From positions 1-23,615 of IMG/VR virus record IMGVR_UViG_3300010413_000173: a DNA stretch of 23,615 nt; one strand, given 5' to 3'. This stretch comes from a virus. The position numbers and the translations under genes are program-made. Shown here piece after piece: positions 1,891-23,615 of the stretch; positions within the stretch are counted from its first letter, which is position 1, and each line of letters starts with the position of its first letter. The notes under the pieces were generated by a model, which saw nothing but the letters and a program-made list of their open reading frames with translations, searched no databases and was not told where the DNA came from.

Positions 1891-2709
1891 TTATCTCCCA
1901 AATTTATTATGAAAAGTCACATAGTCAGGATATAAGGGTTTTCCCTGAGTAAATTTTAAATATGTTTCATCTCCGTTCATGTAAGCGAACTCAATCCACT
2001 TACGCTTGATATGCCAAACTAGTGGGTCAGGTTGGTCCACTTCCCGTGTATCTCGTACAACCCACTCATTAATCAATTCTTCAATAGTTTCTTGTGCAGG
2101 GGCCACTTCCCACTCATCACTTGGTCCGACGGCGTGTTCCATCTCGGTACAACCGCGCTTGAGAATGACCTTAACGTCTTTACCTAAATATGGGTCGTTA
2201 TCTACAGCCTCTCGAACTGCAAGATAACATTCTTCTCCATTCTCTAGCCCAATGTTATAAAAGTAGCCGCCATACAAGCCATGTACAGTAGTTCTTACCT
2301 CTATACCGCATTTCGATGGCCTGCCTAGTTTTTTCTGTAAGTCATCAAGAGCAAATAGTTGGATTAAAGTTTTAGGTCTAACAACAACCTTATAACAGTT
2401 TTGACAACCTGAAGGCACAAAAGGCTTCCCGCCCTTAAAATATTTACTCATATTGAGCGACACAATATTAAACATTATGTTAGTCCAAGTGAAACAATCT
2501 AACCCCGCGTGGCCATTGTGGACCCAAGGCGTTTCAATCGCAAACTGCTTCTGTCGAGCTCTGAGTTTGCCGTTGTCTTGAACTATCCAACCCCCACTAT
2601 CAAGGAGGGGCTTTAACCAAGTATAGACATCATGCCCTATCAACCAGTCGTAAAAACTTCCGTCAAACTCTTCTTTGTCCTGCGCCGTCCCTTCTATAAT
2701 ATCGACCAT
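1891..2709 (-). CDS. Hypothetical phage protein, 272 aa
   Basis: A full-length, well-behaved ORF with an even amino-acid mix and many aromatic residues. Its ATG directly follows the TAA of the small basic gene (TAAATG) and GGAAGGGAT provides the Shine-Dalgarno. Visible features are a CQNC pair near residue 103-106, the segment GLYGGYFYNIGLENGEE in the middle, an acidic region near residues 200-220, and a basic/aromatic C-terminus. I do not recognise the family. The CxxC pair is too little to claim a metal site. Confidence 0.7.
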   Translation of the reverse strand: MVDIIEGTAQDKEEFDGSFYDWLIGHDVYTWLKPLLDSGGWIVQDNGKLRARQKQFAIETPWVHNGHAGLDCFTWTNIMFNIVSLNMSKYFKGGKPFVPSGCQNCYKVVVRPKTLIQLFALDDLQKKLGRPSKCGIEVRTTVHGLYGGYFYNIGLENGEECYLAVREAVDNDPYLGKDVKVILKRGCTEMEHAVGPSDEWEVAPAQETIEELINEWVVRDTREVDQPDPLVWHIKRKWIEFAYMNGDETYLKFTQGKPLYPDYVTFHNKFGR

Positions 2710-2868
2710 TTATCCCTTCCTTTTGGGTACTTTATAACCTTTCTTTCTAGCGTGAGCCAAATTCCTAGCTGTTTGCGCCCCCTTGGCTTTTTTGGTTGTT
2801 TTGTGACAAGAAACCTTCTTGCCTGAATCTCTCTCGTAGAGTCATTTACCTTTCCTAATAACCGGCAT
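2710..2868 (-). pseudogene. Small basic gene with an in-frame UGA at codon 9
   Basis: A near-ideal ribosome binding site (TAGGAGGTAGAT) precedes an ATG that encodes MPVIRKGK and then hits TGA at 2842-2844. The same frame continues without another stop for 43 codons, LYERDSGKKVSCHKT and then a Lys/Arg-rich tail ending VPKRKG, to a TAA that abuts the next ATG. Reading the TGA as Trp gives a 52-residue basic protein of the kind common in phage head operons. TGA serves as a normal stop at several other genes here (846-1163, 6002-7198, 18565-19494) and tryptophans elsewhere are TGG, so general recoding is unlikely. A TGG-to-TGA mutation, a sequencing error, or UGA-C readthrough remain possible. 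Confidence 0.6.
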
Positions 2869-2880
2869 ATCTACCTCCTA

Positions 2881-3378
2881 CTAAGCCCTGACCAACTCCA
2901 CGTTCCAACTCGACTTCAAATAGGGTTTGAGCAAAAAATCAATGTATAAATATTCTGGAACATCACGCTTGCCAGTTCTGGCATACTCAATCTCAATTAC
3001 ATCAACCTTCTCACGTATAACATTACCAGTTTGAGATAAGTCTGGAGCTGGATTGCCACCAGACAAATAGCGTAAAGCAATCTCTGCCTGAGCCTGTTTT
3101 ACACGCAAGGGTACCGCCGTAGCGGAAACATAATAGTTATTCTGGTCTGTAACATCACGTCTAGGCCATTCTAAGCCCTGTGTAGAGGTTGTTTTTAACC
3201 CACGCCAAGGAAGTGTTTCCATGTAACGCGCCGCGCGTATCAGATGGCCTTCGAGAGTCGAGCTAGGTCCTCCCCATGTCGTAATTCCTATCTCGTCAAA
3301 GTACGCACTGGCACTAGCCAAAGACATATACGAATTACTACTTGCCATTGAAGTTCCGTCTTCTACAACAATAGTCAT
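2881..3378 (-). CDS. Head-completion / DnaT-like phage protein
   Basis: 165 residues starting MTIVVEDGTSMASSNSYMSL, then SASAYFDE, HLIRAARYME, PWRG and LEWPRRDV. This order (VEDGT, NSY, ASAYF, LIRAARY, W, WPR) is the pattern of the phage family annotated as putative DnaT-like ssDNA-binding protein, which in practice sits among head-tail connector genes. An AGAGGA ribosome site lies about 8 bases before the ATG, and the TAA of the upstream gene abuts it. The position downstream of the portal and capsid genes fits a neck or completion role; the DnaT-like name is historical. Confidence 0.75.
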   Translation of the reverse strand: MTIVVEDGTSMASSNSYMSLASASAYFDEIGITTWGGPSSTLEGHLIRAARYMETLPWRGLKTTSTQGLEWPRRDVTDQNNYYVSATAVPLRVKQAQAEIALRYLSGGNPAPDLSQTGNVIREKVDVIEIEYARTGKRDVPEYLYIDFLLKPYLKSSWNVELVRA

Positions 3379-3525: not shown

Positions 3526-4041
3526 TTAAAGGCCGGTTTTGGCATCCCTAGACAAATCGCGCTTAATCCAGTTATAGTTTTGGATTTTCGCAGGCACACC
3601 CCAAGCTGTCATGTTGTCTGGCACATCTTTGGTGACGACACTCCCGGCCCCCACAAAAGAATTTCGTCCTAGCACAACACCACACACTATGGTTGCATTT
3701 GCACCCACGGCCGCCCCGTCCTTCACTACTGTTTTCTCATACCGTCCACGACGAAAGGTACGAGGACGCTTAACATTCGTAAATGTTGCGTTCGGGCCGA
3801 CAAATACATTATCGCCTAAAATAACTCCATCAAAAAGAAAAACCCCGTTTTGGATTCGGCAGTTGTCACCTACAACAACGGTTGAAGCAATAAAACAACC
3901 TTGTCCAATAGAGCAGTTCTTGCCAATTTTTGCCCCAGACATAATATGCGTCCAACGCCATACCTTTGTACCGTCTCCCAAACTACATCCGGGTTCAACA
4001 TCCGCTAGTCTATGGATAAACACGGGGGCTTTACTATCCAT
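3526..4041 (-). CDS. wlbB: Left-handed beta-helix N-acetyltransferase (WlbB/WbpD-like)
   Basis: 171 residues made almost entirely of hexapeptide repeats: FIHRLADVEPGCSLGDGT, then HIMSGAKIGKNCSIGQ, then VGANATIVCGVVLG and FVGAGSVVTKDV. This matches WbpD/WlbB, the trimeric acetyl-CoA enzymes that N-acetylate the 3-amino group of UDP-2-acetamido-3-amino-2,3-dideoxyglucuronate in making di-N-acetylated uronic acids of O-antigen; FdtC-type enzymes are close relatives. The ATG at 4041 is preferred over the TTG one codon earlier because GGAGG lies 8 bases before it. A WlbA-like dehydrogenase lies 0.9 kb upstream, supporting the pathway assignment. No aminotransferase (WbpE/WlbC) is in the window, so the host or another phage region must supply it. 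Confidence 0.85.
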   Translation of the reverse strand: MDSKAPVFIHRLADVEPGCSLGDGTKVWRWTHIMSGAKIGKNCSIGQGCFIASTVVVGDNCRIQNGVFLFDGVILGDNVFVGPNATFTNVKRPRTFRRGRYEKTVVKDGAAVGANATIVCGVVLGRNSFVGAGSVVTKDVPDNMTAWGVPAKIQNYNWIKRDLSRDAKTGL

Positions 4042-4264
4042 CAAGTCTTCCTCCAGTTGTCAAGAAAGTACCTGTGTTTTCCAGTCGTTTAACGGCCTCT
4101 CTAAGTTTACGATTGCCAATCATACCATACACAGCCCAAGCCACAGCAGACGCGATGTCATCGGCCAGTTCTTGGTCCATAAAACCGAGTAGCTCTGTAT
4201 CAATCCGAATTTCACCTGTTACCCCATTAACATCTTCAATCATCACAGTAATTTTCTCGTTCAT
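4034..4264 (-). CDS. Hypothetical protein, 76 aa
   Basis: Starts MNEKITVMIEDVNGVTGEIRI with AAGGAGTAGTT before the ATG, a strong ribosome site that overlaps the stop of the upstream gene. The N-terminal third looks like beta-strands, the rest like amphipathic helices (ADDIASAVAWAVYGMI). Its last bases overlap the start of the acetyltransferase gene by 8, indicating translational coupling. No family recognised. Confidence 0.65.
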   Translation of the reverse strand: MNEKITVMIEDVNGVTGEIRIDTELLGFMDQELADDIASAVAWAVYGMIGNRKLREAVKRLENTGTFLTTGGRLDG

Positions 4265-4266
4265 AA

Positions 4267-4662
4267 CTACTCCTTTTCGACAAGCTTCTTCAGGAGTCCG
4301 ACAATCTCCTGTTGTTGCTTAGCTATAAAATGCAGAAGTTCTTTAACTTCTGTCTTATCTAACTCTGACTGTTCTTCGACAGGATCACGTTCTGAGTACT
4401 CGATGGCCTTGAGAGCAAAAATCTCCCACTCCTCTCTGACGCTTGACCAAATACGACAATAATCCTCGTGTGAAATCTGCTTTCCGTATTTTAGGCTTAG
4501 CAGGTAACGTTCAAACTCCTCAAGTTCTTCCTCAAAATCTTGACTTTCGATAGAGTTGTCTCGTCCCATAGAAAGAAACGGCTCGCGGCATTTACGCCAT
4601 TTCCTCGCCATCTCGCGGAGGTCTTCCTGTAGAAGGTCCACCGGACGTTTCTCGTTCTTCAT
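4267..4662 (-). CDS. Hypothetical acidic helical protein, 131 aa
   Basis: Strongly charged and predicted helical throughout, with an acidic run (FEEELEEFERYLLSL) near residue 43 and a C-terminal amphipathic segment (LHFIAKQQQEIVGLLKKLV) that could form a coiled coil. The given ATG overlaps the upstream gene by 71 bases and has no Shine-Dalgarno. An ATG at 4611 (MARKWRK) would reduce the overlap to 20 bases and may be the true start. The stop is embedded in the ribosome site of the next gene. Function unknown. Confidence 0.6.
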   Translation of the reverse strand: MKNEKRPVDLLQEDLREMARKWRKCREPFLSMGRDNSIESQDFEEELEEFERYLLSLKYGKQISHEDYCRIWSSVREEWEIFALKAIEYSERDPVEEQSELDKTEVKELLHFIAKQQQEIVGLLKKLVEKE

Positions 4663-15703: not shown

Positions 15704-18370
15704 CTACCAAAGAAGCTCGACGGAACGCCCCACAAGCTCCTCCACCGGAAATCTATAAACTACGTAGTACCCCAATGCGTCAGATAAATGTGACAGCATT
15801 GGATCGGACTTCTTGTCAATGTCCCCCCCTCCACCTTCCACAAGTCGTGTCCCTTCAAGGTCTCTAGCTGTGTGAGGAGCCTTATCTTTATCAATAAGCA
15901 TGTGAACGATGCCCGCCGCCGAGAGTAACCGCGAGTTTAGGGCATTAACTCTTACACGTTCACGCGGGTTAGCTGGCGGAATAAAGTAATGCACACGTCT
16001 CCACTTATTCCTAAAAACCTTCTTAACAATATCCCAGTCGGAACCCTCGACTTTAGCCGAACCACCAGCGCCACCTGTAGCATCACCATAAACATGCACA
16101 TCGCCTTGGTGACTGCCCCAGTCAGTTAGGATTGCTTCGCAAACAGCTACAGTATTGCTGTTTCTGGGGATGAAGACTTCTCCGATAACACCTGTGCCAA
16201 TTACCGGGTTATAATAGGTTTCATTGCGTCTTTCATCATAAACAGGCTCTTTTACGCCCGGTAACTGCTGTTCTTGGCAAATAACGGCCACTCCAGGGGA
16301 AATATTGAAGTCAAAACACAAAACTAGGGGCTGAGTTGGGTCGTACTGGAGAGGTCGGCAGTGAACATCCATGTCAAAAGGATAATACACACGCCCTTGG
16401 AAGTAGATGAACGAGTTAAAATTATCTATACCTTCCGACAGAAGATAACTATGGTCTTGGCTGTCGACTTCTATGTTCCAGCATTCCTCTTGAGGACCAA
16501 ACGTCTGGCCTACCACTTTGAGACGCAACTTACCGTCTACAAAATGAGTAGACATCCACTGATTAAAGTCTGGGAAGTTGTTTGGAGTTCTGTTCTGCTT
16601 GTCCTGTGTAACAAGACTTTTTATTACCTGTTGGTTCGTGGACAAAAGTTCACCTATTTTGTTCCAACGTAGGCCCAGTTCATACAGAGAACGGGCCTTT
16701 CTCTTTCTATACCCAGAAGCAAACATATACTTCTGCCACAACCAAGCCAACTCCTGCTTCTTAGGAGAGTATAAAAAGCCTACAGTCGATAGGAACTCTC
16801 GTGAATTCACATAGAGCACTGAGACATGCTGATGTGGTCTAACCGTATTTCCAACCCCAAGCTCTGTCAGCAACTCTCCGCACTCTTCAACAAGACGTCT
16901 AGATGCCATACTCAAAGTAACTTCTGGGCTCTTTTTGCCTCTTGGAGAATGTCCGTCGGCCCCAAAAATAGCAGCCAAAAACCATTTTTTTACAGACAAC
17001 GAGCCGTGTTTAATCCAACTCGGGACGCCTAGAGGAGAACTAGGCTTGTGTCCAACAATACAGCCTGCCTTTACAAGCTGTCTGGCATATTGCCCCCCGA
17101 CTTGGAGTTGCCAAAAGCCATCACTCTTTTCTGTTACATTGCAGTTTGCCTCTATGCCAGCCAAAAGCAAATCTCTTTTAATCTCTTCGAGGGCAGTCTT
17201 GTCAGACGAGTAAAAAGCTACCCCGTACGACGGACCGTTTCTGGTTTGGCCTGTTTCACACACGGTTCCGTCTCCTAAGTTGAATCCAACAACACTCGCC
17301 AAAGCTTCAGCTTGCGTCCTAGGTCTGTCGTGGATAGGAACAAACTCAATGAATGTACAGTCCTCTAGCGGTACTACTTCATCAGCTAACCGCATTTTGT
17401 GCTGAGTTGAGGCTACAAAAGTACTTCCGTCCTCCAACTCCACTGTTAGCATGTATTTTTTCCCAGTCGGCCCTACTTGGAGTACTGTTGTCTCAGTAAC
17501 AACACCGTTCTGTAACGACAAAAGCTTATCGCCCACAGTCAAGCTAGAAATAGCCTTGTTTGTGCCGTCAGCAAGTCTGACCAACGTATCCGGACGATGG
17601 CAACCTTCATATTCTTGCTTGAACGTCAAGTCGTCAAGCGTGTTGCGGGCGCTTTCAACCTCCCGCGGGTCAAGAATCTCCGCACTCTTCCAATGAAACA
17701 TGTCCCACTCGGGGGTAATCCCGTCGTACATTGCCTCTTCCGAAATACGCTTCGCGTCTTCGGCTAACTCCCAATAATGGTTCCGGCCTTCTGGCACGCC
17801 GATGAAATCGCACCAACCCGCACGGTCAGAAAGAGCAGGACGCACATGTTCAGGCCAAGTTCTAGCTCTCATATTGCCGTACTCATCCAAAACGCACCCG
17901 TCCCACGGCGTACCCTCCACACGTTCGGGCTTGTCCATGCCAATTACCCATATTTCTGCCCCAGACTTGAGACGTATACACATTTCTGTCTCACTTACAC
18001 CGCGACGCGGGTCTGGGTCGTAAGCCCAGTCGGGCACGAGCCGTTTGATGTCCTGCCAAAAAATACGTTTAGCCTGCGACCAAACAGGCGCACCCACAAA
18101 ATAACGTGGATAAGGGTCTTTGGAGGGTAGGGGAAGGCCGTGAATAGTGCTGTACGGGTCAAGCGCCCGTAGAACAATTTTACGTTTAGCAAGCTCAGTT
18201 TTACCCGACCTGCGCCCTGAAGGGACAACCTTAAAACGCGCCGGAGAGGACCAATACCGATGTTGTTCGGCATGAGGGCGCATTTGTGTCCACCGAGGCG
18301 TTAAATAGCTCTCTTTTGGGGGCCGACCGCCCTTGTTTCGCAATGTACTGGGTGTTTCGCGCGATGGCAC
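15704..18370 (-). CDS. terL: Large terminase subunit, interrupted by an in-frame intein
   Basis: 888 residues from a GTG start. N-extein, residues 1-256: Walker A SGRRSGKTE (51-59), motif GTPWDGCVLDEYGNM with the Walker B pair D162/E163, and NTLDDLTFKQEYEG at the end of the ATPase domain. C-extein, residues 653-888: nuclease motifs LCFDFN, VYGDATGG and HLSDALGYYV, the three acidic sites of the RNase H-like packaging nuclease. Joining EYEG to SFIYFQGRVYYPFD restores an uninterrupted TerL of 492 residues, so the product is presumably active after splicing. It cuts and pumps phage DNA into proheads with TerS. The methyltransferase gene lies between the two terminase genes, which is uncommon but known. 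Confidence 0.93.
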   Translation of the reverse strand: MPSRETPSTLRNKGGRPPKESYLTPRWTQMRPHAEQHRYWSSPARFKVVPSGRRSGKTELAKRKIVLRALDPYSTIHGLPLPSKDPYPRYFVGAPVWSQAKRIFWQDIKRLVPDWAYDPDPRRGVSETEMCIRLKSGAEIWVIGMDKPERVEGTPWDGCVLDEYGNMRARTWPEHVRPALSDRAGWCDFIGVPEGRNHYWELAEDAKRISEEAMYDGITPEWDMFHWKSAEILDPREVESARNTLDDLTFKQEYEGCHRPDTLVRLADGTNKAISSLTVGDKLLSLQNGVVTETTVLQVGPTGKKYMLTVELEDGSTFVASTQHKMRLADEVVPLEDCTFIEFVPIHDRPRTQAEALASVVGFNLGDGTVCETGQTRNGPSYGVAFYSSDKTALEEIKRDLLLAGIEANCNVTEKSDGFWQLQVGGQYARQLVKAGCIVGHKPSSPLGVPSWIKHGSLSVKKWFLAAIFGADGHSPRGKKSPEVTLSMASRRLVEECGELLTELGVGNTVRPHQHVSVLYVNSREFLSTVGFLYSPKKQELAWLWQKYMFASGYRKRKARSLYELGLRWNKIGELLSTNQQVIKSLVTQDKQNRTPNNFPDFNQWMSTHFVDGKLRLKVVGQTFGPQEECWNIEVDSQDHSYLLSEGIDNFNSFIYFQGRVYYPFDMDVHCRPLQYDPTQPLVLCFDFNISPGVAVICQEQQLPGVKEPVYDERRNETYYNPVIGTGVIGEVFIPRNSNTVAVCEAILTDWGSHQGDVHVYGDATGGAGGSAKVEGSDWDIVKKVFRNKWRRVHYFIPPANPRERVRVNALNSRLLSAAGIVHMLIDKDKAPHTARDLEGTRLVEGGGGDIDKKSDPMLSHLSDALGYYVVYRFPVEELVGRSVELLW
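16415..17602 (-). mobile_element. Intein with LAGLIDADG homing endonuclease in terL
   Basis: Residues 257-652 of TerL (396 aa). Block A starts CHRPDTLVRLADGT; block B is GSTFVASTQHKMRL with the STQH variant of TxxH; block F is CWNIEVDSQDHSYLL; block G ends GIDNFN followed by Ser +1 of the C-extein. Two LAGLIDADG-type helices are visible: SVVGFNLGDGTV (D367) and FLAAIFGADGHS (D472), so the endonuclease looks intact. The penultimate residue is Phe rather than the usual His, which may slow Asn cyclisation or be offset by block F. The insertion point is the ATPase-nuclease junction. Confidence 0.92.
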
Positions 18371-19532: not shown

Positions 19533-20111
19533 CTATTTATCTGTCCCTGTTTTTTGTGGTACAGCAGGCAGTGTCTCCACCATATATTTAGCTGTTGTCT
19601 GTAAACGCTTAGCGATATCTTCGGTCGATTCGTCTTGTGTACCAAACTTCCTCATCCCAGAACCTAACCCGTTTCCAGAACCTTCCTTCCAACCGGCATG
19701 CACAGTCAACCAGAACTTAGTCATAGAGGGATGCTGGCCGCTCAACGCCATCTGAGTAGCGACAGCAATGACATCACGTGTGAGTAGCGCTTTACCGTTA
19801 TCAAGCTCATCACGGAAATAACGTCTCAACGTACTAGTAGAAATCGGACCGAGCGGATGTATCGCACGAGCTATTTCGTCTTGTTTCATACCGGCGGCAG
19901 CCATGACCCGCACAGCATAACGCTCTTCAGAGGTGGGTTCCCACCCCCTCACCTGCGCCAACGTCAACTTCTTAGGTCTGTCTGTCGCTTTATAATCAAA
20001 AGTAGCACGGCGCTTCTTACCCAGACTCTCACGTGCCTTCTTCACACTTGTCTTTTTAGGCTTCTGTAACTGTATAACACGACCCGGAGTACACGTCGTA
20101 GAACTGGCCAT
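19533..20111 (-). CDS. terS: Small terminase subunit
   Basis: 192 residues from the ATG at 20111, preceded by GAGGTGAACTCT, which favours it over a GTG at 20120. After a basic disordered N-terminus comes a helix-turn-helix region (SEERYAVRVMAAAGMKQDEI, then GPISTSTLRRYFRDELDNGK) and a segment typical of phage small terminases (VATQMALSGQHPSMTKFWL, then HAGWKEG). TerS binds the packaging site and hands DNA to TerL. It is the first gene of the left-going operon, 0.1 kb from a duplicated promoter module. Confidence 0.85.
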   Translation of the reverse strand: MASSTTCTPGRVIQLQKPKKTSVKKARESLGKKRRATFDYKATDRPKKLTLAQVRGWEPTSEERYAVRVMAAAGMKQDEIARAIHPLGPISTSTLRRYFRDELDNGKALLTRDVIAVATQMALSGQHPSMTKFWLTVHAGWKEGSGNGLGSGMRKFGTQDESTEDIAKRLQTTAKYMVETLPAVPQKTGTDK

Positions 20112-20208
20112 AGAGTTCACCTCTACGACCTATTGTAATCCCAAAGTCTCATTCACAAAGTACTTTACGTACTTCAGAACGTTGTTACTACAAAGTTCAG
20201 TCCGCTCT

Positions 20209-20237
20209 ATTATAGCAAAACTTGTCCGGATTGGCTG
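20209..20237 (-). promoter_or_regulatory. Proximal late promoter candidate upstream of terS
   Basis: Minus strand: extended -10 TGCTATAAT (20209-20217), with CAGCCAATCCGGAC (20224-20237) ending 9 bases upstream of the hexamer. The usual TTGACA is absent, so the conserved CAGCCAA-CCGGAC block may be a phage-specific -35 or an activator site. Transcription would run leftward through terS, dcm, terL and the head genes. Confidence 0.7.
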
Positions 20238-20279
20238 CTGTACTTAGGAACGTTGTTACTACAAATTTCAACTAACATG

Positions 20280-20308
20280 TATATACGTAAAAAAGTCCGG
20301 TTTGGCTG
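20280..20308 (-). promoter_or_regulatory. Distal late promoter candidate, copy 2 of the module
   Basis: Minus strand: TATATA (20280-20285) and CAGCCAAACCGGAC (20295-20308), exactly 71 bases from the proximal pair and at the same internal spacing. The -10 is weaker than in copy 1, so it may be secondary. Confidence 0.55.
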
Positions 20309-20310
20309 TG

Positions 20311-20460
20311 GGACGTAGTGGTACGTAGGGTGTGGTGGGTTGTGGTTAGTTGTACGTAGTTGGTTGGTTGTACGTAGCATATTATACCTAGAGCGTGGTT
20401 GGTTGTACGTAGTTGGTCGTACGTGGTTGGTTGGTTGTACGTAGTTATGACAGGTACCCC
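20311..20460. repeat. GT-rich tract with six iterated GTACGTRG boxes
   Basis: GTACGTAG occurs at 20321, 20352, 20370, 20405 and 20437, and GTACGTGG at 20419, embedded in GGTTGGTTG repeats. The plus strand is almost devoid of C outside the boxes. TACGTA is self-complementary, so each box is a potential dimer site. The tract lies immediately upstream of the duplicated late promoters and contains one further TATAAT on the minus strand (20381-20386). It could be an activator array, an origin or a packaging site. No gene is supported here. Confidence 0.75.
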
Positions 20461-20479
20461 ACGCATGGCCGGGGCCGGG

Positions 20480-20506
20480 AAATCCCGGATTTGGCTGCCG
20501 GGATTT
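20480..20506. other. 9-bp hairpin whose loop carries the promoter-module motif
   Basis: AAATCCCGG (20480-20488) and CCGGGATTT (20498-20506) pair around a 9-base loop. The loop reads CAGCCAAAT on the minus strand, and with the arm gives CAGCCAAATCCGG, close to the conserved block of the 71-bp modules. The likeness may be a relic of a third copy or chance. Confidence 0.5.
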
Positions 20507-20582
20507 TCCTGATGGCTGGGGGATTTTCTTAGGGGGAGCTAGGGGATTCTCTTAGGGGAATCCCCTAGGCCAAGGGCAAGGG

Positions 20583-20619
20583 AAAGCCCTAGGCTTGGAG
20601 GGGGAGCCTAGGGCTTTTT
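20583..20619. terminator. 13-bp hairpin, bidirectional terminator candidate
   Basis: AAAGCCCTAGGCT and AGCCTAGGGCTTT pair perfectly around a 9-base loop; on the plus strand TT-C-TT follows, on the minus strand the stem itself ends in TTT. It lies just after the stop of the minus-strand gene at 20637 and could end that transcript. Confidence 0.6.
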
Positions 20620-20626
20620 CTTAGGG

Positions 20627-20647
20627 AAAAATCCTATTAGGATTTTT
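20627..20647 (-). terminator. Hairpin overlapping the stop codon at 20637
   Basis: AAAAATCC and GGATTTTT pair around TAATA, which holds the TAA stop. On either strand the stem ends in five Ts, a compact bidirectional terminator. Confidence 0.55.
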
Positions 20648-21167
20648 GGCCTTGCCTCATGCAGAGAGGCAAGAATTTATTATAATCTCTCTGCCAATGG
20701 CAAAAATGCGAGCCGAAATGCTTGCGAGAGGCCATAGGAATTGGCATATTGATTTTTTCGCCATGAGAGATTAAATCCTCAATTTTTGGCAGGGATTTTC
20801 CCGGATTTTCCCTATGCCAAGAGGCCAAGATGCAATCATAATATCCCCCGCGAGAGGCCAATTTTCTGCCATAGGGGGAATCTTGGGCCTTGCCAAGGGA
20901 TTTATTTTTGGCCTTGGCCTTATCAATCCAATTCTGCATGATTGCTTGCGAAAATTCCTCTGAGAGGGAATCTTGATTTTCCCTGATTGCATTTTGCAGG
21001 CGGGCCTTGCCTTGGGCCTCTCTCCGGGCCTCTATCGCCTCTTGAGCCTGCCTTTGGGCCTTGGCATTGGCCTCTGCATTTTGGGCCTCTCTCCGGGCCT
21101 CTTGGGCCTCTAAATTAGCCTGCCAATTTTCCTCTTGCCTCTGATTTTTCGCCAATTTTTTCGCCAT
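20637..21167 (-). CDS. Unknown protein with no Thr and no Val, 176 aa
   Basis: The ATG at 21167 follows GAGAGAGGAAAAAAATC, a good ribosome site; a TTG at 21215 lies at the promoter and is rejected. Residues 1-75 are an Ala/Gln/Glu/Arg-rich helix or coiled coil with near-repeats (EAQEARREAQ, then EAIEARREAQ). The C-terminal 85 residues are mixed and look folded (GYYDCILASWHRENPGK, then HFGSHFCHWQRDYNKF). Because the DNA contains no AC or GT, threonine and valine codons cannot occur, and Tyr, His, Asn, Asp, Cys, Gly and Arg use only the remaining synonyms. No family recognised. An upstream promoter, a ribosome site and a downstream terminator argue for a genuine gene. Confidence 0.65.
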   Translation of the reverse strand: MAKKLAKNQRQEENWQANLEAQEARREAQNAEANAKAQRQAQEAIEARREAQGKARLQNAIRENQDSLSEEFSQAIMQNWIDKAKAKNKSLGKAQDSPYGRKLASRGGYYDCILASWHRENPGKSLPKIEDLISHGEKINMPIPMASRKHFGSHFCHWQRDYNKFLPLCMRQGQKS

Positions 21168-21199
21168 GATTTTTTTCCTCTCTCTGATTTTTTTTGGCC

Positions 21200-21215
21200 T
21201 TGCCTTGCAAGGCAA
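21200..21215. promoter_or_regulatory. Perfect 16-bp palindrome, candidate operator
   Basis: TTGCCTTGCAAGGCAA is fully self-complementary and directly follows the -10 hexamer of the minus-strand promoter at 21215-21242, where a bound dimer would block transcription. In RNA it could also form a leader hairpin. Confidence 0.55.
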
Positions 21216-21242
21216 TTATCATATATGCATAGCCCATGCCAA
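21215..21242 (-). promoter_or_regulatory. Promoter candidate for the Thr/Val-free protein gene
   Basis: Minus strand TTGGCA (21237-21242), 16-base spacer, GATAAT (21215-21220). The predicted start lies about 40 bases before the ATG. An AT-rich stretch lies upstream. Confidence 0.6.
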
Positions 21243-21293
21243 TTTTGCCTTTTTTGATATTTTTTATTTTTCTAATCATTTTATATATTTATC

Positions 21294-21536
21294 TTAATTC
21301 ATATTTTTTTTATTTTGGCATAGGCAGGGAATTTTATCATTTTGAGAATTTTGCATTTTTCCTTTCTCATTTTGAGAATCATTTTGGGCTATGGCTGGCA
21401 GAGCCGCGCCAGGAGCGGGCCTCCCAGCCGGAGCCTTTTTTTGGCCTTTATCATTTTGAGAATTTTGCATTTTTCCTTTCTCATTTTGAGAATCTGCTTT
21501 TTTTGGCATAGATTTTGCCCTAGGAGCCTTTGGCAT
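21294..21536 (-). CDS. Possible repetitive polar protein, 80 aa
   Basis: Opens MPKAPRAKSMPKKAD and contains the peptide DSQNEKGKMQNSQNDK twice, separated by a Pro/Ala-rich stretch, because a 48-base DNA repeat lies in frame. AAGG sits a few bases before the ATG. Highly polar, basic, and again without Thr or Val. It could be a real disordered protein or an open frame across a repeat-bearing control region; lack of rarer residues and of any fold signal keeps confidence low. Confidence 0.35.
   Translation of the reverse strand: MPKAPRAKSMPKKADSQNEKGKMQNSQNDKGQKKAPAGRPAPGAALPAIAQNDSQNEKGKMQNSQNDKIPCLCQNKKNMN
21333..21380. repeat. 48-bp direct repeat, copy 1
   Basis: Identical to 21447-21494, 114 bases away. 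Each copy holds TCATTTTGAGAAT twice, 30 bases apart (here at 21337 and 21367), so four such 13-mers lie in the region. Confidence 0.9.
21447..21494. repeat. 48-bp direct repeat, copy 2
   Basis: Exact copy of 21333-21380, with its TCATTTTGAGAAT elements at 21451 and 21481. The even spacing of paired 13-mers resembles iterated protein-binding sites. Confidence 0.9.
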
Positions 21537-21620
21537 GGCCCTTGCAATCTATCGCCAGATTATATATTATTTTGCTAGGAAATCCCCCAGCCATTTCCTG
21601 GCAAATTAATATAGATTAGC

Positions 21621-21680
21621 CTAATATATATTGCCCTATTCTATATCAGGCTAATATATATTGCCCTATTCTATATCGGC
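21621..21680. repeat. 30-bp tandem repeat, two units
   Basis: Units 21621-21650 and 21651-21680 differ only at the last bases. On the minus strand each contains GATATAGAATAGGGCA; the same motif with one change (GATATAGGATAGGGCA) overlaps the -10 of the plus-strand promoter near 22750, suggesting a shared promoter or regulator site. Confidence 0.85.
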
Positions 21681-21695
21681 CCGCCAGGAAAAAGA

Positions 21696-22036
21696 CGAAC
21701 GACCAAAAGGCAAAAACGCCACGACCCGAACCCAAGACGCCCGACGACCCGGCAAAAGGACGATCCACAACCCGGCAAAAGGACGAAACGCCACTTGACG
21801 CACGACGGAACGACGACCCGACGACGCGACCCAGGCACGCGCGGGACGTTTTGAAACGTTTTCGCCGGAACCAGCCGGGACGTTTTGAAACGTTTTCGCC
21901 ACCCAGGAACGGAACGGCTGGGACGATTTACTACGCTTTTGAGACGAACCACAAAGGCGCAAAAGACGCTTTCACGACTTGGCAAAAGGCCGATTTTTCG
22001 CTGGCGTTTTTTTCTGAGTTTTTTTGAAGGTATTCC
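21696..22036. other. Intergenic control region rich in GACG and GGCAAAAGG words
   Basis: No supported gene. Right after the AC/GT-free tract the plus strand becomes very rich in AC (mostly GACG and CGAC) while GT stays absent until the ACGTTTT elements at 21846. ACCCGGCAAAAGGACGA occurs twice near 21755 and 21772, and GGCAAAAGG-type words recur at 21980, 22663 and near 23355. Long minus-strand frames here (21666-22240) have no ribosome site and an Arg/Ser/Val composition typical of shadow frames. Confidence 0.6.
21843..21900. repeat. Two exact 24-bp copies of an ACGTTTT element
   Basis: Copies at 21843-21866 and 21877-21900 both read GGGACGTTTTGAAACGTTTT followed by CGCC, 34 bases apart. ACGTTTTGAAACGT is a near-perfect inverted repeat. 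Related sites lie at 22584, 23277 and 23317, all between transcription units. Likely operator or regulator sites. Confidence 0.85.
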
Positions 22037-22064
22037 TTGATTTTTTCTTTGTGCCCTATATGAT
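22037..22064 (+). promoter_or_regulatory. Promoter of the first plus-strand unit
   Basis: TTGATT (22037-22042), 16-base spacer, TATGAT (22059-22064), about 33 bases before the ATG at 22097. A GAGAGAGAG leader with ribosome site follows. Confidence 0.65.
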
Positions 22065-22096
22065 GAGGATAATCTGAGAGAGAGAGGAGAGCACAA

Positions 22097-22291
22097 ATGG
22101 AGAAGAAGAGAATAGACAAGGAGAAGCTTTCTTTCGACGAGGGCAAAGCCCTCATCGCCACAGGCCAATTCGAGCTGGCGGGGAAGCATTATCACCCCCG
22201 CCGGGGCTTCTGCCTCACCTTCCTCCATGAGAATTCCCACCAGGAATTAATCATAGGGGAAGATTGGGCCAGACTTTATTTTCTGGCCTAA
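22097..22291 (+). CDS. Unknown small protein, 64 aa
   Basis: Follows a promoter and AGAGGAGAGCACAA. The product (MEKKRIDKEKLSFDEGKALI, then FELAGKHYHPRRGF and ending DWARLYFLA) is charged and looks folded, with no valine. It is the first gene of a two-gene unit, followed after 8 bases by a GNRA-capped hairpin and the next gene's ribosome site. No family recognised. The GT-free sense strand is shared with its neighbours. Confidence 0.7.
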   Translation: MEKKRIDKEKLSFDEGKALIATGQFELAGKHYHPRRGFCLTFLHENSHQELIIGEDWARLYFLA

Positions 22292-22299
22292 TCCACATC

Positions 22300-22317
22300 G
22301 GGGGGCGAAAGCCCCCC
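22300..22317 (+). other. Intercistronic GNRA hairpin before a strong ribosome site
   Basis: GGGGGGC-GAAA-GCCCCCC, a 7-bp stem with a GAAA tetraloop, followed by ACAAGGAGGAAATC and ATG. No T-run follows, so it is not a terminator; mRNA stabilisation or processing between the two cistrons is more likely. A second copy with a GCAA loop is at 23070-23087. Confidence 0.8.
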
Positions 22318-22331
22318 ACAAGGAGGAAATC

Positions 22332-22526
22332 ATGCCGAGCACATTTGAATTGATTCGCCGGGACCTTCGCCAGGCTCAGGAATACGCCGAGGCCGCTCTG
22401 AGCCGGATTCACAATTACGATATTTCGGAAATACCGATGGAAAATCTGGATGACGCCATCGGGGAATTGCGGGGACTCCAGCGCCTCGCCGCTCTCCACG
22501 ATATGAAGACGAAGCCTTATCGCTAA
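22332..22526 (+). CDS. Unknown helical protein, 64 aa
   Basis: AAGGAGG lies 6-7 bases before the ATG. The chain is almost wholly helical and acidic (LIRRDLRQAQEYAEAALSRI, then MENLDDAIGELRGLQRLAAL) with no valine and no cysteine. It could form a helical hairpin or a small coiled-coil dimer. It is the second gene of the first plus-strand unit and is followed by a terminator. Function unknown. Confidence 0.7.
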   Translation: MPSTFELIRRDLRQAQEYAEAALSRIHNYDISEIPMENLDDAIGELRGLQRLAALHDMKTKPYR

Positions 22527-22542
22527 TCTCCTCTCTCCAACC

Positions 22543-22568
22543 GGCCCGCTTCGGCGGGCCAACCTTTT
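22543..22568 (+). terminator. Terminator of the first plus-strand unit
   Basis: GGCCCGC-TTCG-GCGGGCC, a 7-bp stem with a UUCG loop, then AACCTTTT. It shares its flanks (TAATCTCCTCTCTCC before, ACCTTTT-GCC after) with the terminator at 23235. Confidence 0.85.
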
Positions 22569-22583
22569 GCCTTGCCTTATTGC

Positions 22584-22601
22584 GACGTTTTAAAACGTTT
22601 T
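22584..22601. repeat. ACGTTTT palindrome between the plus-strand units
   Basis: GACGTTTTAAAACGTTTT; the 14-base core ACGTTTTAAAACGT is perfectly self-complementary. It lies 16 bases after the first terminator. The remaining 22602-22728 shows AC-rich, gene-free sequence. Confidence 0.8.
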
Positions 22602-22728
22602 GATTACTTCCTCACGGCACTGCGCGAACGCCCGACTACGAGGCTTAGACAGCCTACAACGAGGCAAAAGGCAAAACTGCCACTCTTGAAGCTGACTGTT
22701 TTTATTTGAGTAGGAAGCAAGGTAATGC

Positions 22729-22757
22729 TTGCCATTCCTATTGGTGCGATATAGGAT
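22729..22757 (+). promoter_or_regulatory. Promoter of the second plus-strand unit
   Basis: TTGCCA (22729-22734), 17-base spacer, TAGGAT (22752-22757), 29 bases before the ATG at 22787. The -10 sits inside GATATAGGATAGGGCA, the motif also found in the 30-bp tandem repeats at 21621-21680 on the other strand. Confidence 0.6.
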
Positions 22758-22786
22758 AGGGCATCAATCAGAGAGGAGGACAAAGG

Positions 22787-23065
22787 ATGAGAGAGGAAGC
22801 GGTTTTGAAGGCCAGAGTCAATGGCCGCAGGATTGAAGTTTTCGTGGTAGGGAAATGGCGGGGCGTCCGCTATTATGGCGGGAAACTCGCCGCTCCCAAA
22901 GGCAAGCACATCTTGGCGGATATCGAGCGCACTATCCGCATCAACACAGGCGGCTATGATTATCCTGGACATGGCTCCCTGAGCGGGCTGACCTATAATC
23001 CCGACAAAGGGCGCTTTGCTGGCAAGGACATCCGCTTCGATTGGCAGGACAGAATCGAGCCCTAA
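22787..23065 (+). CDS. Unknown protein, 92 aa
   Basis: AGGAGGACAAAGG precedes the ATG. The product starts MREEAVLKARVNGRRIEVFV and continues with a beta-rich, Gly/Tyr-rich stretch (NTGGYDYPGHGSLSGL) and an Asp/Arg C-terminus. All six valines fall in the first 27 residues; downstream of about base 22866 the sense strand has no GT. First gene of the second two-gene unit. No family recognised. Confidence 0.7.
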   Translation: MREEAVLKARVNGRRIEVFVVGKWRGVRYYGGKLAAPKGKHILADIERTIRINTGGYDYPGHGSLSGLTYNPDKGRFAGKDIRFDWQDRIEP

Positions 23066-23069
23066 ACTC

Positions 23070-23087
23070 GGGGGGCGCAAGCCCCCC
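23070..23087 (+). other. Second intercistronic GNRA hairpin before a strong ribosome site
   Basis: GGGGGGC-GCAA-GCCCCCC, identical in stem to the hairpin at 22300 but with a GCAA loop, then AACAAGGAGGGAAACC and ATG. The loop change keeps the GNRA rule, which points to a selected RNA fold. Confidence 0.8.
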
Positions 23088-23103
23088 AACAAGGAGGGAA
23101 ACC

Positions 23104-23214
23104 ATGGGATATTTTGAATTCACAATGATTGCGATAGCTTTTGGACTTCTTCTCTGCATCGGGCTCCGCGGCTTCGAGATGCTGGCCGACTGGATAGCCG
23201 ACAGATTCTTCTAA
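23104..23214 (+). CDS. 36-residue single-span membrane protein
   Basis: AAGGAGGG lies about 6 bases before the ATG. The product MGYFEFTMIAIAFGLLLCIG is followed by LRGFEMLADWIADRFF: one transmembrane helix, then an amphipathic segment. It contains no valine, which is unusual for a membrane helix, in keeping with the GT-free sense strand. Second gene of its unit, followed by a terminator. Toxin-like or lysis-accessory roles are possible but unproven. Confidence 0.65.
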   Translation: MGYFEFTMIAIAFGLLLCIGLRGFEMLADWIADRFF

Positions 23215-23234
23215 TCTCCTCTCTCCTCTCCAAC

Positions 23235-23262
23235 GGGGCTCCTGCGGGAGCCCCACCTTTTT
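23235..23262 (+). terminator. Terminator of the second plus-strand unit
   Basis: GGGGCTCC-TGCG-GGAGCCCC, an 8-bp stem, then ACCTTTTTGCC. Preceded by TAATCTCCTCTCTCC as at the first terminator. Confidence 0.85.
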
Positions 23263-23276
23263 GCCTGCCAGCCACC

Positions 23277-23351
23277 GGGACGTTTTGAGACGTAGCCAAT
23301 TTTCTCTTACCGGCCAACGTTTTAAAACGTCCCTGCCTGAAATCGAGACGT
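23277..23351. repeat. ACGTTTT elements between the last plus-strand unit and the convergent gene
   Basis: GGGACGTTTTGAGACGT (23277-23293) and ACGTTTTAAAACGTCCC (23317-23333) are inverted relative to each other; a further ACGTTTCG starts at 23348. These are the only GTs of the plus strand between 22867 and 23371. Confidence 0.8.
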
Positions 23352-23401
23352 TTCGCAAAAGGGCAATCCTCTGTGGCTGGGCCTCCCCTCAGCTTGTCGG
23401 C

Positions 23402-23615
23402 CTAGCTAATCCGCCATGTGCCCTTTGAGCGCAGGGCTTGTTTCGCCCTTTCGCTCAGCTTGTCGGAGCGCATATGCTCCCGAAGTTGCCGATTCTCCTC
23501 GCGGAGGTCGGCAATCATCTCCTGCGCTTGTCTCAGCTCCTCTTGGAGCCGTGAAAGCTCGGAAGCCTTTTTGTAGGCGGCCTTGACAGCTGGCGTGGCA
23601 TTTTCCAGGGAATTT
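23402..23615 (-). CDS. Partial coiled-coil protein, N-terminus off the right edge
   Basis: The minus strand is open from the right edge to the TAG at 23402-23404, giving the last 70 residues. They form a strongly helical Glu/Arg/Gln-rich segment (LSRLQEELRQAQEMIADLRE, then ENRQLREHMRSDKLSERAKQ) ending KGTWRIS, a likely coiled coil. Only one valine occurs. The sense strand has a single GT in this stretch apart from the edge, while AC is frequent, so it shares the dinucleotide habit of the plus-strand genes although it lies on the other strand. Function unknown. Confidence 0.65.
   Translation of the reverse strand, partial: NSLENATPAVKAAYKKASELSRLQEELRQAQEMIADLREENRQLREHMRSDKLSERAKQALRSKGTWRIS

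Follow-up and report, generated by a model that had tools for sequence, protein, structure and literature searches.

Selection against short sequences is well known from phages that avoid restriction sites, in which sites of 4-6 bp are removed genome-wide. Here we describe a stretch of phage DNA in which avoidance is instead local, absolute or nearly so, and directed at steps of 2 bp: positions 20463-21695 of an uncultured phage contig from IMG/VR (IMGVR_UViG_3300010413_000173; the entire record of 23,615 bases, probably a genome fragment, was analyzed and is called the window) contain neither AC nor GT, and a ladder of the same dinucleotides follows to the right. Iterons of plasmids and phages are direct repeats about 22 bp apart that can lie in genes, but the ladder steps share only a dinucleotide. 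Mom of phage Mu modifies adenine in a short sequence context; a Mom-family gene (PF25680) is also present in a relative of the window phage, a 140,478-base contig whose start is called L003, whereas Mu itself has no such tract. The pac regions of headful phages lie, like the tract, near the small terminase gene, but pac sites are far smaller and we know of no dinucleotide exclusion in them. Likewise, we know of no local absolute exclusion or two-turn spacing of the sites used by the T7 and T4 primases. These start sites are trinucleotides that include GT: T7 primase is reported to start at 5'-GTC with pppAC (PMC11109968) and T4 primase at 5'-GTT or GCT (PMC10359460). A base mark needed for packaging is described for P1, which requires Dam marks at pac (PMC12707154). 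Finally, in phages with 7-deazaguanine in their DNA, such as CAjan and 9g, FolE, QueD, QueE and QueC make preQ0 and DpdA inserts the modified base (PMC8306585); FolE, QueD, QueE-like, QueC and DpdA-like genes are likewise present in the L003 phage. CAjan DpdA is reported to mark the short contexts GA and GGC (PMC8306585), which resembles the two-base step considered here. The available text of that paper and of related 7-deazaguanine literature reports no AC/GT context, and the CAjan and 9g genomes have no dinucleotide-free tract, unlike the window phage group.

The tract is bounded by AC at 20461 and AC at 21695. Given the background density of the contig (0.1294 per base), about 159 AC or GT would be expected within it and none was found, which bears out the absence described in an initial annotation of the sequence (its own expectation was about 154). 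The second-longest AC/GT-free gap across the window is 52 bases, and the remainder of the window has an ordinary AC/GT content. Every other dinucleotide is present in the tract (the rarest, CG, in 25 copies), and GT alone is missing across a longer span, from 20454 to 21848. The GT-rich left and AC-rich right flanks noted in the same annotation were also recovered (38 GT and 12 AC in 20281-20462; 42 AC and 7 GT in 21696-22050). The features of this part of the window are as follows.

19533-20120, minus strand: small-terminase-like gene left of the tract, named from its position
20281-20462, plus strand: GT-rich left flank
20463-21695, no strand: AC/GT-free tract
20515-20622, no strand: hairpin and cluster of GGGG..CCCC dyads, downstream of the open reading frame (ORF) at 20637-21167
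20637-21167, minus strand: tract ORF with ATG start (TTG-start version to 21215), without threonine (Thr) or valine (Val)
21294-21536, minus strand: 80-residue tract ORF without Thr or Val, holding TCAAAATGAGAA or TCAAAATGATAA words
21594-21691, minus strand: upstream tract edge, with repeats, a long inverted repeat and a GATATAGAATAGGGCA-like element
21695-21980, plus strand: AC-dense right flank with two CGGGACGTTTTGAAACGTTTTCGCC copies (21842, 21876)

A similar tract was found in two other phage contigs, whose names carry different sample numbers. In L003, whose phage has a portal 70% identical to that of the window (portal search), 805 bases (2545-3349) contain no GT and a single AC, where about 100 AC plus GT would be expected. 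In L098, a 5,264-base contig obtained by a terminase search, the first 712 bases contain neither dinucleotide, against about 89 expected, and the contig ends (at its left end) inside the tract. The exclusion is thus absolute in the window and in the part of the L098 tract that its contig covers, and near-absolute in L003. In all three phages the tract lies upstream of a small-terminase-like gene, that of the window being 49% identical to its counterpart in L003 and 45% to that in L098. The tracts themselves have only a few 13-base words in common. The tract ORFs of L098 and L003 are related (33% identity over 67 residues, E 4e-8), whereas the window ORF at 20637-21167 had no significant BLASTP match to L003 (E 12) or L098 (E 0.17) and is their counterpart by position only. 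Since tracts of differing sequence are present in three phages, the rule outlasts the sequence. Homologous tracts with diverged sequence had been named in the initial annotation as a sign of selection, and L003 and L098 provide them; an assembly chimera, which it had also considered, is unlikely now that two further contigs of different sequence show the same layout. Outside this locus the 140-kb relative has ordinary AC/GT, and the AC/GT-free runs of the L003 record are at most 57 bases long, apart from the tract and one run of 169 bases. The complete phages closest in their large terminase, MW202621 (51.6%) and MW202657 (40.6%), have no tract anywhere in their records, in which the longest AC/GT-free runs are 77 and 107 bases, respectively.

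In a control set of 217 records (2,115,168 bases, counting redundant copies; each record was represented by its three longest runs), AC/GT-free runs of more than 126 bases outside the window occurred only in L003, L098 and L200, and the L200 runs (435 and 146 bases) are a gene of a 15-base tandem repeat. The window tract is unlike L200: only 12.5% of its 12-mers recur and its internal tandem arrays are short, so that an artefact of one repeat unit was set aside as unlikely. In 73 cellular stretches selected with a dyad pattern (497,911 bases), no AC/GT-free run exceeded 135 bases. The window tract ORF, gene C (see below) and the L098 tract ORF had no match in protein searches of viral contigs and phages, a profile of the L098 and L003 tract ORFs matched those two contigs only, and genome contigs yielded no relative to a portal profile. 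Among the best 80 of 92 relatives obtained with a small-terminase profile, only L003's own contig had a tract. Pattern searches gave a similar picture. The dyad-array pattern returned 102 viral stretches with no new AC/GT-free run above 126 bases except the repeat gene of L200, and a stricter dyad pattern returned 73 stretches of genome contigs, none with a tract. The AC-poor runs of L008 (10301-12793, in the 140-kb relative) were discarded as a candidate tract, being explained by a long SPSLSPS-type repeat protein. A literature search on dinucleotide absence or spacing in phages, limited to open-licence PMC papers, turned up no account of such a tract, and one on iterons returned nothing.

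Thr and Val are absent from all 565 residues of four tract ORFs, compared with 13.9% of the 5,189 residues in 17 other ORFs of the window. Synonymous recoding of four ORFs in the three tracts with local codon usage (5000 trials each) gave mean AC/GT counts of 38.7, 16.6, 28.4 and 31.7, with minima of 21, 6, 14 and 19, whereas the observed count was 0 in each. Because recoding never fell below 6, simple codon bias was set aside as the cause, in agreement with the earlier statement that codon choice alone cannot explain the tract. A two-base step under selection so strong that the proteins lose two amino acids implies that something actively reads it. With regard to composition, AT steps rise in all three tracts no more than AC/GT removal alone would give; GC steps are raised beyond this effect in L003 and L098, whereas the window shows no such excess. 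A Pfam search with the tract protein gave no match and its predicted structure is a model too poor for structure searches (mean predicted local distance difference test score, pLDDT, 52); an H-NS-like silencer is thus not supported as its identity, no known silencer family in Pfam being matched.

Beyond what the initial annotation had described, positions 22093-23595 of the window carry AC, and then GT, at steps near 22 bases. The ladder and its genes are listed below.

22006-22064, plus strand: promoter-like P1 (consensus matches only), TTGATT-N16-TATGAT, with GT at 22006, 22018, 22030 and 22051
22093-22585, plus strand: AC ladder over genes A and B, 23 AC and 0 GT; 15 of 22 steps are 20-24 bases, two are 34
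22097-22291, plus strand: gene A, 64 residues, no family match below E 0.05
22332-22526, plus strand: gene B, 64 residues, no family match
22583-22600, no strand: ACGTTTTAAAACGT palindrome after the A-B unit, read by eye
22698-22757, plus strand: promoter-like P2 (consensus matches only), TTGCCA-N17-TAGGAT, with GT at 22698, 22710, 22722 and 22744
22787-23065, plus strand: gene C, 92 residues, without a family match above cut-off; its first part holds six GT
22885-23280, plus strand: AC ladder covering the remainder of gene C as well as gene D, 21 AC and 0 GT; 10 of 20 steps are 20-24 bases
23104-23214, plus strand: gene D, 36 residues, no family match
23235-23254, plus strand: terminator-like hairpin after gene D; AC steps run on beyond it
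23278-23333, no strand: ACGTTTT-type palindromes between convergent units, read by eye
23350-23596, plus strand: GT ladder, 12 GT at steps of 21-23 bases (standard deviation 0.62); sole AC at 23586
23402-23615, minus strand: gene E, 3' part, running off the contig, without a family match above cut-off; the ladder overshoots its stop codon by three GT

Counted along the sense strand, the ladder has 53 steps, 36 of which measure 20-24 bases (15/22, 10/20 and 11/11 by segment), a fraction of 0.679 compared with a null mean of 0.089 and a null maximum of 0.275 (3000 simulations with the same dinucleotide make-up). The steps of the GT ladder are, in order, 23, 23, 22, 22, 22, 23, 22, 23, 21, 22 and 22. 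The remaining steps are 34 (twice), 44 (once), 11-13 (five), 6 (twice) and single steps of 2, 16, 17, 19, 27, 31 and 32 bases; the ladder, which was seen in one contig only, is thus imperfect, and least regular in the C-D unit. The AC ladder follows the sense strand and switches strand with gene direction (A-D plus, E minus). Sense GT is absent from genes A, B and D and occurs once in E and six times in C; only 0.07% of 3000 recodings reached the observed sense GT of A, B, D and E, and none reached that of C. With sense GT at or near zero in A, B, D and E, their template strands therefore carry almost no AC. The ladder continues past the stop codon of gene E, a GC-rich hairpin after gene B (by eye) and the terminator-like hairpin at 23235-23254, and it is therefore a property of the nucleic acid rather than of the proteins. 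The 55 ladder sites have no flanking consensus beyond weak biases and share only AC itself, and an iteron origin is not supported, as no conserved 17-22 bp repeat was found. A period of 11.2 describes segment 22093-22585, and none stands out clearly in segment 22885-23280; when all spacings are pooled, periods of 10.45-11.3 fit about equally. In P1 and P2, which look like paralogues, the distances of GT from the -35-like hexamers agree within one base. We also observed that the ACGTTTT-type palindromes (21842, 21876, 22583, 23278 and 23315) lie between apparent transcription units, where they resemble operators or boundaries.

Taken together, the combination of ladder and tract looks categorically new. 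It may be a spacing code at the DNA level, the sole letter of which is one dinucleotide step: the locus would be blank over a kilobase where it must stay blank, would carry one-strand steps every two helical turns or so along transcribed genes and fixed positions in promoters, and would be held by selection while the surrounding sequence changes almost freely. As to what reads the step, it is possible that AC/GT is the target of a phage base-modification enzyme and that the tract is DNA that cannot be marked. The absence of a modification context had been one suggestion of the initial annotation, and it is now the best supported, although CAjan, 9g and Mu, which have such enzymes, lack a tract. 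This reading was ranked first because the L003 phage encodes the pathway genes and a two-base DpdA context has a precedent; given the GA context of CAjan, such a context would not be strange for a DpdA-type enzyme. The L003 phage has GTP cyclohydrolase I (FolE, 8e-56), QueC (8e-62), a QueE-like protein (phrog_2076, 3e-17), a PTPS/QueD protein (3e-27) and a DpdA-like protein (phrog_887, 4e-47; no Pfam hit). The order listed for its 98-105 kb region is methyltransferase (98009-98590), DpdA-like protein (98590-99408), GTP cyclohydrolase I, ParB-like protein, QueC, QueE-like protein and PTPS/QueD. Its Mom-family protein (PF25680, 3e-29; 80856-81545) was the only one among seven records searched, and this one phage (G002; L011, L012; 80856-105101) therefore combines a Mom-family protein with the 7-deazaguanine pathway. 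By comparison, neither of the tract-less relatives MW202621 and MW202657 had QueC, phrog_887, PTPS or Mom. The exclusion is also strand-symmetric in three phages with different sequence, and in the window the ladder, with its steps of about 22 bases, changes strand with gene direction.

If a DpdA-like enzyme acts, the marked base would be the guanine of GT; if the Mom-family protein acts, it would be the adenine of AC. The tract would then be a zone unmarkable on either strand, and the neighboring small genes would have marks almost wholly on one strand, thinned to about one per two helical turns. Marking of the A of AC would leave the template strands of A, B, D and E almost mark-free, and marking of the G of GT would do the same for their non-template strands. 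It has been reported that 7-deazaguanine might block sigma and transcription factors (PMC6884629). We infer that the enzyme would read AC/GT and that its marks would hinder a protein that has to act early on this DNA, be it the host RNA polymerase or a protein of packaging or replication; the even spacing may then balance protection against hindrance. Should a modification enzyme be the reader, phages would be seen to keep mark-free and mark-spaced zones, and modification contexts would be inferable from sequence.

Several observations weigh against a modification enzyme. The preQ0 genes and dpdA were found in one of the three tract phages and not in the records of the window and L098, which are fragments of 23.6 and 5.3 kb. 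Both MW202621 and MW202657 have an annotated pyrimidine hydroxymethylase, and MW202657 also annotated methylases; these phages may be modified in another way, and the contrast with them therefore holds for 7-deazaguanine and Mom only. A scan of the whole CAjan, 9g and Mu genomes for six strand-paired dinucleotide classes revealed no comparable tract in any of the three; GA/TC-free runs in CAjan reach at most 81 bases, and Mu never goes more than 72 bases without [CG]A[CG] on one strand or the other. The Mu Mom site, which we take to be [CG]A[CG]N[CT], is not AC alone. AC/GT is ordinary elsewhere in the window and in the 140-kb relative, so that some special reason for the exclusion at this locus would be required, and gene C retains six sense GT. 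Finally, modification alone does not lead one to expect steps of about 22 bases, which are just as suggestive of an array of protein on double-stranded DNA.

Such an array, ranked next after modification, would consist of a multimeric double-stranded DNA-binding protein that reads GT (or AC) as an oriented minimal site two helical turns apart, with the tract as a reader-free zone around one operon. We consider it somewhat unlikely. The ladder would be its form on small operons and the GT at about -65, -53, -41 and -20 of the estimated starts its form at promoters; the protein could be a silencer, an activator or an origin initiator. It would accommodate the excess of 20-24-base steps over the null maximum, the additional steps of 34, 44 and 11-13 bases and the 11.2 period of 22093-22585, a period of about 11 bases being commonly taken as the pitch of negatively supercoiled bacterial DNA (PMC4132750). 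It also agrees with the overrun of hairpins and of the gene E stop, and with the matching GT positions of P1 and P2, which however may reflect descent. Of 15 GGG..CCC dyads outside the tracts, 13 contain GT or AC (12 of 14 in L003 and 1 of 1 in L098). In three of the 13 the dyad includes a GT that is a tract boundary, and of the two dyads with neither step, one belongs to the 169-base run of L003. Inside tracts the count is 0 of 16, where absence is true by definition. On the other hand, 17 of 53 steps fall outside 20-24 bases, the ladder sites lack a flanking consensus, the pooled spacings do not single out a period and one segment has none, and the ladder is confined to one contig. Moreover, HU/IHF was not found in four records, and the tract protein has neither a Pfam hit nor a good model. 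If an array is present, it amounts to a minimal, helically spaced code. The removal of primase start sites, also suggested initially, appears improbable; here primers would begin at template GT, and the tract would be an unprimed zone at an origin-like region. Consistent with this, the L003 phage encodes a primase (phrog_47, 3e-41, L012:17133-17999; its PF01807 match was below cut-off), the use of GT by the T7 and T4 primases stands, and the two flanks of the window would prime outward. In the L003 record, GC skew and gene direction have a positive sign between about 4 and 54 kb and a negative one between 54 and about 120 kb, and the remainder up to 140 kb has little skew; the tract would lie near a skew change if the contig ends adjoin, as assumed; however, gene direction alone can produce skew. 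A PF01807 search of three shorter records, including the window, found no primase, the GT-rich right flank of L003 would prime inward, and a primase reads single strands and leaves the two-turn ladder of about 22-base steps unexplained. An unprimed stretch of 1.2 kb is also short beside usual lagging-strand fragments.

A packaging zone, in which a small terminase ring wraps DNA and ladder and tract set its seating and the genome cut, seems about equally improbable. The position of the tract upstream of the small-terminase-like gene in 3/3 phages fits it, the pac of P22 being reported within, and that of SPP1 overlapping the start of, the small terminase gene (PMC9611059, PMC4737164). However, the ladder lies 2-3.5 kb from the terminase gene and its strand follows gene direction and apparent transcription units, and DNA wrapping by the small terminase is one proposed model which, according to the cited review text, is without biochemical support (PMC9611059, PMC4737164). 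If packaging is involved, the locus bears on how pac is recognized with little sequence specificity. A rule at the RNA level, by which transcripts avoid AC and GU owing to a ribonuclease or an RNA-binding protein, has a still smaller chance. The pattern does track apparent transcription units, GU would be nearly missing from most sense strands there, and the L003 tract ends about 24 bases after a terminator-like hairpin. But genes A-E retain AC, the L098 tract runs about 120 bases beyond such a hairpin and the ladder overruns that of the C-D unit, and the RNA interferase of the initial annotation is thus a weak candidate. Least probable of all, to the point of being very doubtful, is a context-dependent mutator that keeps converting AC/GT at the locus: several dyads inside tracts read GGGAATCCC where some outside read GGGAGTCCC, and GC steps exceed the removal effect in the L003 and L098 tracts. 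Against it, the window has no such GC excess, AT is raised beyond that effect in no tract, and the ladder would require protected sites.

Several further observations concern the surroundings of the tracts. An Rfam scan (gathering threshold, 20000-23615) and a tRNA scan of the window found nothing. In the window tract, 21334-21489 holds four copies of TCAAAATGAGAA or TCAAAATGATAA, with an overlapping 13-base word common to the L003 tract; the dyad cluster at 20515-20622 has GGGGAATCCCCTA-type words in common with L098, and the GATATAGAATAGGGCA-like element of the tract edge resembles 22744-22765 in a by-eye reading. Next to its tract, L003 has GT-only arrays and not the ladder of the window: directly upstream, 2190-2500 consists of CGT words every 4-5 bases with almost no A, and contains 64 GT from 2199 to 2494. 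The array has a nearly designed appearance, but a test for phasing over and above a 4/5 mixture gave a non-significant p=0.064. A search with this pattern returned nine stretches, one of which is the L003 contig, while seven of the remaining eight are tandem or simple repeats. A second, smaller AC/GT-free run (179-348, 169 bases) lies at the same locus of L003, and an ORF at 3580-4545, by eye GIY-YIG homing endonuclease-like, stands between tract and small-terminase-like gene. In CAjan, TC is missing over about 240 bases and AT over about 226 at L291:39240-39484, in a gene noted as a DUF699 protein. The matched genes of the window, up to 20120 on the minus strand, include portal, major head protein, large terminase, C5 DNA methyltransferase and the small-terminase-like gene, the last of which matches phrog_12540, a PHROG family of unknown function. 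The large terminase (15704-18370) has a long insertion not present in that of L003, which looks intein-like from its position and from the way it splits the match.

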